Assembly (NCBI GenBank): GCA_902792895.1
Contig: CADBBK010000003.1
Span: forward strand, 62,001 to 126,000
DNA from: an uncultured Bacteroidales bacterium
Lineage (GTDB): Bacteria > Bacteroidota > Bacteroidia > Bacteroidales > Muribaculaceae
DNA: 64,000 nt
Direction of reading: 5' to 3'
Positions 1-2,382 of this stretch are shown piece after piece. Numbering within the stretch: the first letter of the stretch is position 1; each line of letters opens with the position of its first letter. The notes beneath the pieces are model-generated. The model saw only the letters and a list, made by a program, of their open reading frames with translations. It was not told where the DNA came from and searched no databases. A program made the position numbers and the translations under genes.

Positions 1-328
1 CCCCGTGCATGTGGTCGGGCATCAATTGGATATCCAGCAGCCGCACTTCGGGATAATGGGTAGCAATGTCTTGCCAGCAGCTGAGCACCCTCTCACCCAA
101 GGCGCTTGGGCGTATCCAGGGACTGGTATGAGTGTCATTGGGGTCGCAGAGCTTTCCGAGGACAGGCTTGCGTCCTTCCACTGCCATGGTCACCATGTAG
201 ATGCAGCGGCTGTGGTAGTCATGCCAGGCGTTGCGCCGTTTCATGGAGCGGTTCACTTGTAGGTCTTCATGGTGATCTTTCCACCACTCCCTGCGTCGCT
301 CGTCCCGATCGTGCCTCTGGTTGCTCAT
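1..328 (-). CDS. REP-associated tyrosine transposase (RAYT, Y1_Tnp/IS200-like), 5' part
   Basis: Only the first 109 codons lie in the window; the frame is open to base 1. It starts at the ATG whose complement is 326-328 and reads MSNQRHDRDERRREWW..., then a YxxTxxxxGR-type core near residues 40-50 (YMVTMAVEGRKPVLG) and LMPDHMHG at the window edge. MPxHxHG is the HUH metal-binding motif of Y1 single-strand transposases, and the preceding strand pattern is typical of RAYTs. RAYTs are single-copy domesticated relatives of IS200 TnpA that act on REP hairpins. An inverted pair of REP-like hairpins lies just upstream (346-407). The catalytic Tyr would lie beyond the window. Confidence 0.8.
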   Translation of the reverse strand, partial: MSNQRHDRDERRREWWKDHHEDLQVNRSMKRRNAWHDYHSRCIYMVTMAVEGRKPVLGKLCDPNDTHTSPWIRPSALGERVLSCWQDIATHYPEVRLLDIQLMPDHMHG

Positions 329-345
329 TGATGACTGGTTTAAAA

Positions 346-407
346 CAGGCCGATGGCCTGCACTACTGCAACAGCAGCCTGTTGCAGTAGTGCGAGCCAT
401 CGGCTCG
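346..407. repeat. Inverted pair of REP-like hairpins (BIME-like) next to the RAYT
   Basis: Two copies face each other. The plus-strand copy has GTAG at 387-390, TG, then a 6-bp stem CGAGCC/GGCTCG around ATC (393-407). The minus-strand copy has GTAG (363-366), TG, then stem CAGGCC/GGCCTG around ATC (346-360). The two stems differ at two positions and both changes are compensated on the other side, so base pairing is kept. Between them lies a perfect 14-bp inverted repeat (361-374 / 379-392, loop CAGC). GTAG followed by an imperfect palindrome is the classical REP architecture. The element may also end transcription of the OPT gene. Confidence 0.8.
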
Positions 408-417
408 TTAATGGTGA

Positions 418-2382
418 TTAGTTGTCTTTCTTGGCGCGCAGGCAGGAGACGGCAAGGAAGAGAATCAGGGCAATGTACATGACGATGCCCAGGAAGTTGC
501 TGGCAGCGTCGCCCAGCGGATTCTCATACTTGAAGCCGAAGAAGATCATCGCTGCACTGACAACACCCATCAGGGCGCCACCGGCAATGAAACCAGATGC
601 CAACAGGGTACCGCGCTCCTTGCGGGCGGCGTTGACCTTCTCATCCTTGCTGCGGCTGCCGACGAACCAGCTGATGATGGCGCCGACGAGCAGCGGGGCA
701 TTCAACTGCAAGGGGATGAACATACCCAGCGAGAAGGGCAGGGCAGGCACCTTGAGCCAGTTGAGCAACAGGGCGAGAATAGCACCCACGCCGTAGAGTA
801 ACCAGGGGGTCTCTCCGCCCATCATCAGGGGCTTGATGACTGCTGCCATGGCGTTGGCCTGGGGAGCAACCATGGCGTTGGGGCCAGTGAAGCCGTAGGC
901 CTCGTTCAGGATCATCATCACACCACCTACAGTGGCAGCCGACACGAGGGTGCCGACAAATTTCCACGTCTGCTGCTTGGCGGGCGTGGTGCCGATCCAG
1001 TAACCTATCTTCATATCGGTGACCATACCGCCAGCCATCGAGAGTGCGGTGCAAACCACACCACCAATGACCATGGCTGCTACGATGCCCTTGGAGCCTT
1101 CGAGGCCGATAGCGACAAAGATGACACTGGCCACGATCAAGGTCATCAGGGTCATACCCGACACGGGGTTACTGCCCACGATAGCGATAGCGTTAGCGGC
1201 CACGGTGGTGAACAGGAAGGCGATAACCAGCACGACGAGGAAGGCCACGATGGTCTGCAGCAGGTTGTGAATGACGCCGATGTAGAAGAACACGAAGGTA
1301 ACCAACAGGGCAGCCAAGAGGGCAAACACGAGGACCTTCATGGAGATGTCACGCTGATGGCGCTCCACCTGCACGTTCTGGGCCTGTCCCTTAAAGGCCT
1401 GTCCGGCAAGACCGGCGGCGTTCTTGATGACACCCCACGACTTGACGATGCCGATGATACCGCTCATGGCGATACCGCCGATACCGATGTAGCGTGCACC
1501 GCCTGCAAAGATATCTTCGGGAGCCATCTGGGCAAACTCAGGATTCATGCCCATGAGGGGAACGATGATCCACCAGATAAAGGCACTACCGGCAAAGATG
1601 ATGAAGGCATAGGGCAGGCCGATGATGTAGCCCAGACCCAGCACAGCGGCACCGGTGTTAATCTTAAAGATCATCTTCACGTTGTTGGTGAAACTCTCAA
1701 GCGCGGGGATGGCTTGGGTGGTGAGCACCTCTTTCCACCATCCGAAGGTCGAGAGCAGGAAGTCGTACAGACCGCCCACGATACCTGCGATGAGCAGGGG
1801 ACGCGCCTGGTCGCCGCCCTTCTGACCGCTGACGAGCACCTGGGTGGTCGCGGTGGCCTCGGGGAACGGGAACTTGCCGTGCATGTCGCTCACGAAGTAC
1901 TTGCGGAAGGGGATGAAGAACAAAATTCCCAAGCAGCCACCCAGCAATGAGCTAAGGAAGACTTCCAGGAAGTTCACGGTGATTTCGGGGTACTCGGCCT
2001 GCAGGATGTAGAGGGCAGGCAGGGTGAAGATGGCACCAGCCACGATAATGCCCGATGCGGCACCAATCGACTGGATGATGACATTCTCGCCCAGCGAGTT
2101 CTTGCGCTTGGTTGCGGCACCGATACCGGCTGCAATGATGGCGATGGGGATGGCAGCCTCAAACACCTGGCCCACCTTGAGACCCAGATAGGCTGCTGCG
2201 GCACTGAAGATGACCGCCATAATCAGACCCAGCGAGACGCTGTAGGGCGTAATCTCGGGATACGTCTTGTCGGGCTTCAAGATGGGGACATATTTCTCCC
2301 CCGGCTTGAGCTCGCGCGCGGCGTTCTCGGGCAACGACATGTCGTCTTGCTGTTCTTGAACAATAATTTCTTCGTCTTTCAT
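418..2382 (-). CDS. OPT-family oligopeptide transporter
   Basis: The 654-residue product is an integral membrane protein with many hydrophobic segments after a soluble, acidic N-terminus of about 45 residues. It carries the OPT signature GKFPFPEATATTQVL at residues 169-183, as in the bacterial/archaeal OPT branch. Members import oligopeptides or metal-peptide complexes by proton coupling; the substrate here cannot be told. Length is normal for the bacterial branch. ATG at 2382 is the natural start. The gene stands alone, divergent from the secreted-protein gene at 2557, with a near-consensus -7 box (TATCTTCG) at 2442-2449 on the minus strand. Confidence 0.85.
   Translation of the reverse strand: MKDEEIIVQEQQDDMSLPENAARELKPGEKYVPILKPDKTYPEITPYSVSLGLIMAVIFSAAAAYLGLKVGQVFEAAIPIAIIAAGIGAATKRKNSLGENVIIQSIGAASGIIVAGAIFTLPALYILQAEYPEITVNFLEVFLSSLLGGCLGILFFIPFRKYFVSDMHGKFPFPEATATTQVLVSGQKGGDQARPLLIAGIVGGLYDFLLSTFGWWKEVLTTQAIPALESFTNNVKMIFKINTGAAVLGLGYIIGLPYAFIIFAGSAFIWWIIVPLMGMNPEFAQMAPEDIFAGGARYIGIGGIAMSGIIGIVKSWGVIKNAAGLAGQAFKGQAQNVQVERHQRDISMKVLVFALLAALLVTFVFFYIGVIHNLLQTIVAFLVVLVIAFLFTTVAANAIAIVGSNPVSGMTLMTLIVASVIFVAIGLEGSKGIVAAMVIGGVVCTALSMAGGMVTDMKIGYWIGTTPAKQQTWKFVGTLVSAATVGGVMMILNEAYGFTGPNAMVAPQANAMAAVIKPLMMGGETPWLLYGVGAILALLLNWLKVPALPFSLGMFIPLQLNAPLLVGAIISWFVGSRSKDEKVNAARKERGTLLASGFIAGGALMGVVSAAMIFFGFKYENPLGDAASNFLGIVMYIALILFLAVSCLRAKKDN

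Follow-up and report, generated by a model that had tools for sequence, protein, structure and literature searches.

RAYTs (REP-associated tyrosine transposases, also TnpA_REP) of the Escherichia coli type (subclass 2.2; PDB 4er8) have a median length of 165 residues and combine an HUH core carrying a Y---NP context with DHxH and WE motifs; their genes lie beside an inverted pair of repetitive extragenic palindromic (REP) units with a GTAG guide 5′ of the hairpin, and their paralogues are not near-identical (PMC6006769). Here, we describe a locus at the beginning of a 64,000-nt stretch of DNA (the window, G000:C3:62001-126000) from an uncultured gut Bacteroidales bacterium, where a RAYT gene whose product has a predicted DprA-like C-terminal domain adjoins an inverted REP pair. 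It is probable (about 0.75) that this locus is a REPtron of an unnamed RAYT subclass, in which Tyr166 would cut and rejoin DNA at the inverted pair and the DprA-like domain would handle single-stranded DNA (ssDNA). This reading is based on the anatomy of the locus, the catalytic residues, the predicted folds, units that are dispersed through the gene-bearing genus but absent from the other families in the sample, the clade-specific flanking units and relatives free of the module; from these we infer binding, cutting, dimer formation and what the DprA-like domain does.

The core, the motifs, the gene-adjacent inverted pair, the guide and the divergence of paralogues are shared with the E. coli type, whereas the proteins described here are about 320-330 residues long with the additional predicted domain, the units have a 14-nt head with an extra GT[CT] motif, stems of 6-8 bp and 3-nt loops, the guide varies among clades, and the taxonomy is different. 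The Bacteroidetes TnpA_Y1 proteins of subclass 2.6 (and 2.4) also belong to class 2 and have flanking secondary structures with copies elsewhere in the host (PMC6006769). However, subclass 2.6 is described with NH[LIV]H and YIH[QN]NP motifs, a median length of 179 aa and atypical structures without GT[AG]G (PMC6006769), whereas the present family has DHxH in 88 of 89 members, a tyrosine motif of Y[LIV]x followed mostly by DNP, a length of about 325 aa and, at the window gene, GTAG. By-eye comparison with Table 1 of PMC6006769 revealed no subclass among 2.1-2.8 that combines DHxH, YxxDNP and about 325 aa. REPINs likewise place two inverted REP units beside a RAYT (Bertels and Rainey 2011, PMC3116915). 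DprA/Smf, which protects ssDNA (Helicobacter pylori 4ljk/5mll), contains the Rossmann domain; in the present protein the sequence similarity to it is near noise, and the domain is fused to a Y1 nuclease. An earlier note on this DNA recognized the REPtron layout correctly, but its description of that layout as known from gammaproteobacteria understates the record, since REP-flanked TnpA_REP genes have already been described from Cyanobacteria and Bacteroidetes (PMC6006769).

RAYT protein and inverted REP pair

The RAYT gene is encoded on the minus strand with its ATG at 328-326; codons 1-109 of 329 lie in the window (2..328), and the 3′ part continues beyond it to G000:C3:61342, as the earlier note had expected. 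The protein of 329 residues consists of an N-terminal Y1/HUH ssDNA endonuclease-ligase part of the RAYT type, with a Y1/IS200 fold like that of E. coli TnpA_REP, and a predicted DprA-like C-terminal part. The sequence MPDHMHG (2..22, minus strand), which had been taken for the start of the transposase, is its internal HUH motif (residues 103-109). Tyr166 lies 60 residues past the HxH (H106, H108), within the predicted range of 60-90. The catalytic set of H106, H108, Y166, N170 and P171 is invariant in 89 of 89 family members, a count made after removal of rows without the HUH motif (110 proteins were found and 89 kept; those dropped were shorter than 290 aa, duplicates or without the HUH motif). 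The Y---NP context is that of class 2, and the class 1 Y---Q motif of IS200/IS605 is not seen. When single proteins were scanned against Pfam and NCBIfam, only the Y1 part was returned, and PHROGs gave a single unnamed family (E 0.009) in one of two proteins. Overall, the identity of the protein as a RAYT is well supported.

The DprA-like Rossmann fold of the C-terminal part (approximately residues 184-326) is well supported by structure prediction, whereas its support from sequence is weak. Of the GTR motif, the Arg alone was seen to be conserved in the family, and the SGxAxGID motif of DprA is not kept. A separate DprA is encoded in the same genome (C28:16488). This domain, which lies outside the window, is the most unusual part of the locus, and no paper on a RAYT-DprA fusion was found in the open-licence literature searched.

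The 89-nt gap between the RAYT gene and the co-directional OPT oligopeptide transporter gene (418..2382, minus strand; Pfam OPT, E 1.7e-108), which marks one edge of the RAYT module, contains one inverted REP pair (344..409). Its arms (344-374 and 379-409) are 87% complementary across 31 nt and are separated by 4 nt. Both units consist of the head CTGTTGCAGTAGTG and, after it, a stem of 6 bp that is closed by an ATC loop. The near unit (346..374, minus strand; guide GTAG) has the hairpin CAGGCC-ATC-GGCCTG at 346-360, 17 nt from the ATG and not 18 as had been stated, and the far unit (379..407, plus strand) has CGAGCC-ATC-GGCTCG at 393-407, the OPT stop codon being 10 nt away. The earlier note was thus right in placing a RAYT beside an inverted pair here, although it described the units as linked tail to tail; the GTAG guides face inwards, and by guide the pair is head to head. 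The perfect 14-bp inner repeat that it reported is present and extends to 15 bp when the invariant C is counted. Folded as ssDNA, the gap reaches −30.7 kcal/mol, compared with −11.2 ± 2.2 in shuffled sequences (z −8.85; none of 200 shuffles equal), and each unit folded singly forms the expected hairpin, although it exceeds its shuffles only modestly (z −2.0 and −2.5; 7 and 2 of 200 shuffles equal). Model R1, which covers GTRNTG-like heads and whose training set included both window units, scores these units at 39.0 and 41.2 bits and everything else in the window at 12.5 bits or less.

The near and far stems differ at two positions, both of which are compensated, as noted earlier. However, the near arm has CAGGCC and the far arm CGAGCC in all six orthologues that were read (L029-L034), with the exception of one broken pair in the near stem of L033, whose gene has an early stop. 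Because the arm assignment is the same in all six, the two differences are a single old inherited state and not two local events, and are weaker evidence than they seem. Compensation is widespread among 72 RAYT-flanking units of the family, which show two-sided changes at five of six pairs, in 51 cells compared with 13.0 ± 2.6 after shuffling. The proportions of paired cells in alignments A5 (98.6%) and A6 (97.9%) arise partly by construction, since units were picked with at most one stem mismatch; in A6 the number of pairs with a two-sided change does not exceed shuffles (225 of 500 reach it), whereas the number of cells with such a change does.

Both loops are ATC in the window, whereas the six orthologues have ACC. 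The 14-nt heads of the two arms match each other exactly in the window only and differ in each of L029-L034. This pattern hints at a possible correction between the palindrome arms.

The RAYT lies behind OPT in eight genomes (L029-L034, L064 and the window). A search with the OPT 3′ end matched 25 of 37 genomes, and among 26 OPT loci compared, several of them diverged or incomplete, a RAYT within the available flank was seen only at the window's own locus. In G006 and G021, the gene next to OPT is the one found beyond the RAYT in the present genome; in G007 and G017 a tRNA-Ser lies beyond OPT without a RAYT, the same tRNA-Ser lying beyond the RAYT in L032 and L033. The pair and the gene thus behave as a single module that separates OPT from its neighbour. 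The exact ends of this module are blurred, and the comparison fits gain and loss alike. Degenerate units just past the stop codon in L029-L031 suggest that a downstream unit was lost in the present genome.

Relatives, dispersed units and guide types

From 322 related loci found, 80 were kept; their titles describe them as Bacteroidales metagenome-assembled genomes, and the hosts named in the titles are ruminants (goat, sheep, roe deer and water buffalo), the label “RUG” in these titles presumably standing for rumen. The family profile A1 matched 39 of 61 genomes, namely 30 of 37 from the same genus and 9 of 24 from other families, in a sample without other genera of its own family; this and the other counts of family matches, of R1 matches at E up to 0.05 and of pattern matches at 0 or up to 3 mismatches refer to the matches listed. 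The matches in the nine genomes of other families extend mostly over the Y1 part, and only G054 shows both halves. An even draw of 198 genomes across the phylum (E 1e-25) returned only the present genome and one match to the Y1 part (G226). A truncated fourth homologue in the present genome (L028, G000:C56:4268-4483) retains approximately its first 75 residues close to a contig end. In addition, a GTGG inverted pair (L295, G000:C22:22423-22491) lies beside a remnant matching the first 16 residues of L046-type RAYTs, and is probably a decayed REPtron of a clade for which no full copy was found in this genome.

The earlier note expected further copies of the unit in the genome. No exact copy was found, the pattern at 0 mismatches matching the two window arms only; the genome does, however, contain dispersed units that have diverged and whose stems are compensated. 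Allowing up to three mismatches gave 213 + 197 matches compared with 84 + 85 for the reversed pattern, an excess that says little because the trailing N positions were ignored, so that matches did not need a complete stem. Unit-pattern searches gave 10 matches, four of which lie at the C9 RAYT, compared with 0 for the reversed patterns, and 41 matches, six of which lie at RAYTs, compared with 4. Model R1, at E up to 0.1, found 19 units in this genome: the two of the window, four around the C9 RAYT and 13 elsewhere. Of the 13 stray units, 11 lie between long open reading frames (ORFs; at least 80 aa, read by eye); C41:632 is ambiguous near a contig end, and C27:26181 lies inside an ORF of 572 codons and may be a chance match. 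The C30-type unit was found in this genome only as its two flanking copies.

Across genomes, R1 (E up to 0.05) matched 28 of 37 from the same genus and none of 24 others, and R2, the model of the GTGG clade covering GTGGR heads (E up to 0.01), matched 18 of 37 and none of 24. These counts, zeros included, are tied to the particular look taken, because the 61-genome scans used stricter filters and scored about 122 first-look candidates per genome, and the Infernal E-values are rough. Summed by hand, R1 matches number 309 over the 30 same-genus genomes that have a family match, including units at genes and training units, and 7 in the seven without one, some of which are less complete assemblies. 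Same-strand arrays were observed in relatives (L296 and L299 in G025, L297 in G007, L298 in G006). Spacing is even in L297 (about 38) and L298 (43) and uneven in L299, and L296 comprises 3.7 copies of a 119-bp period with 90% matches. GTAG and GTAT units share L296 and L299 and alternate in L296, where GTAG occurs mostly with ACC loops (one with TCT) and GTAT with TCC or CCC.

The guide 5′ of the gene-adjacent hairpin is GTAG in the clade of the window, GTAT in that of C9, GTGG in that of L046, and mainly GTAA in L037, L038 and L052. It was readable by pattern in 53 of 89 loci; the hairpins of the C30 clade have a different head, and at some loci no hairpin is seen. Beside the genes, each RAYT clade therefore carries a single type of unit, which agrees with the published rule that every TnpA_REP is matched by a REP family of its own (PMC6006769), but with a range of guides wider than GT[AG]G. 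Arg152 (alignment A2), which by ungapped count from a conserved Trp occupies the place of a guide-contacting residue of E. coli TnpA_REP, is present in 4 of 24 RAYTs that have a T at the end of the guide, compared with 28 of 29 that have another base there. As the tree shows only four guide and three residue changes, and columns 95 and 162 are equally informative, residue 152 is a lead only as a possible determinant of guide specificity.

Proposed function and alternative explanations

In the REPtron reading, the enzyme would act as a dimer on ssDNA (lagging strand) and recognize the inverted pair by its hairpin and GTAG guide. Cutting and rejoining by Tyr166 at the pair would excise units, multiply them or join them into arrays, while the DprA-like domain would hold or shield the ssDNA intermediate and may pass it to RecA or to annealing; this function, including ssDNA binding and RecA loading, is suggested by the predicted fold. 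Several observations weigh against this reading. The stray units, only 13 and all GTRN, are mostly single, with a few in direct arrays, and are not inverted doublets as in REPINs; one GTGG pair lies at C22. Nineteen units are few compared with the “hundreds of times per genome” of PMC3116915, and the seven R1 matches in genus genomes without a family match occur in three of those seven. Two members score 33 and 42 bits against the NCBIfam equivalog NF047646 (REP_Tyr_transpos), below its curated cut-off of 80, so the family is not filed under it. The DprA-like fold rests on prediction, the VIA list being a re-look at Foldseek's own top 1000. HMMER similarity to DprA reaches only E ~0.07, and PF02481, with a best E of 0.033, appears in no more than 3 of the 89 members, below the Pfam cut-off. 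Alignment with 27 DprAs of the same order by hhalign gave a probability of 11%, with 2.8% for the Y1 half as control; given this value and the single-protein scans showing Y1 only, the attempt to prove homology to DprA from sequence failed.

A further proposal, possible though rather unlikely, is that of a RAYT with its own DprA-type recombination mediator. Here the Y1 part might cut or join REP hairpins while the fused domain protects ssDNA and loads RecA (or anneals), such that REP dispersal and array growth would be recombination-assisted and guides would have diversified to give several orthogonal RAYT/REP pairs per genome.

It is possible, though rather unlikely, that the protein is instead a domesticated RAYT with a host role in ssDNA repair or defence, that the pair mainly controls its own expression, and that the dispersed units are fossils. 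The DprA-like domain would suit such a role, and divergent paralogues are retained as open frames in many genomes. Because the pair is placed between the ATG and the OPT gene, which runs in the same direction, transcripts reading through it could form a strong hairpin (the folding was computed on DNA). In G054, from another family of the order, the gene with both halves (L286, G054:C31:49797-50900) lies between the type I restriction genes hsdS and hsdR, and no REP-like hairpin was found at this locus. On the other hand, PADLOC gave no match for two members, and the conserved arrays (L296, L297 and L298) look like ongoing multiplication, although tandem growth need not use a RAYT.

An ordinary IS200/IS605-type insertion sequence (IS), a self-moving gene with terminal hairpins that merely resemble REPs, is improbable. 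Such an element would account for the several homologues per genome (three full-length and mutually divergent here, and up to nine matches in one relative, corresponding to seven places as split matches were counted apart), for the same pairs on both sides of the gene at C9 in this genome and at L083 and L097, as in IS ends, and for relatives without the module at OPT. However, the 44 within-genome pairs that could be formed from 15 assemblies are only 44-73% identical, without the near-identical copies of a multiplying IS; the module stands behind OPT in eight genomes with each arm keeping its own stem; units are present without the gene; and the motif is that of class 2. It is highly improbable that the pair is no more than a transcription terminator or a palindrome that arose by chance. 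Its head, loop and stem pattern recurs in orthologues and, at different sites, in other RAYT clades; the excess over reversed patterns, the stem covariation and the distribution of R1 matches among the 61 genomes add to this. The pair does lie just past the OPT stop codon, where a single pair could terminate and may do so in addition to its REP role.

Overall, the observation made in the earlier note is confirmed and its interpretation partly supported. The means by which RAYTs disperse REP sequences, and the reasons for which hosts retain RAYTs, have been called unresolved (PMC3116915). The REPtron reading adds well-formed REPtrons from a Bacteroidales genus with several divergent RAYTs per genome, and the clade-wise series of GTAG, GTAT, GTGG and GTAA offers a natural set for learning how RAYTs read their guides. 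A nuclease apparently joined to a DprA-like domain names a candidate partner step, which would be ssDNA protection and RecA loading.
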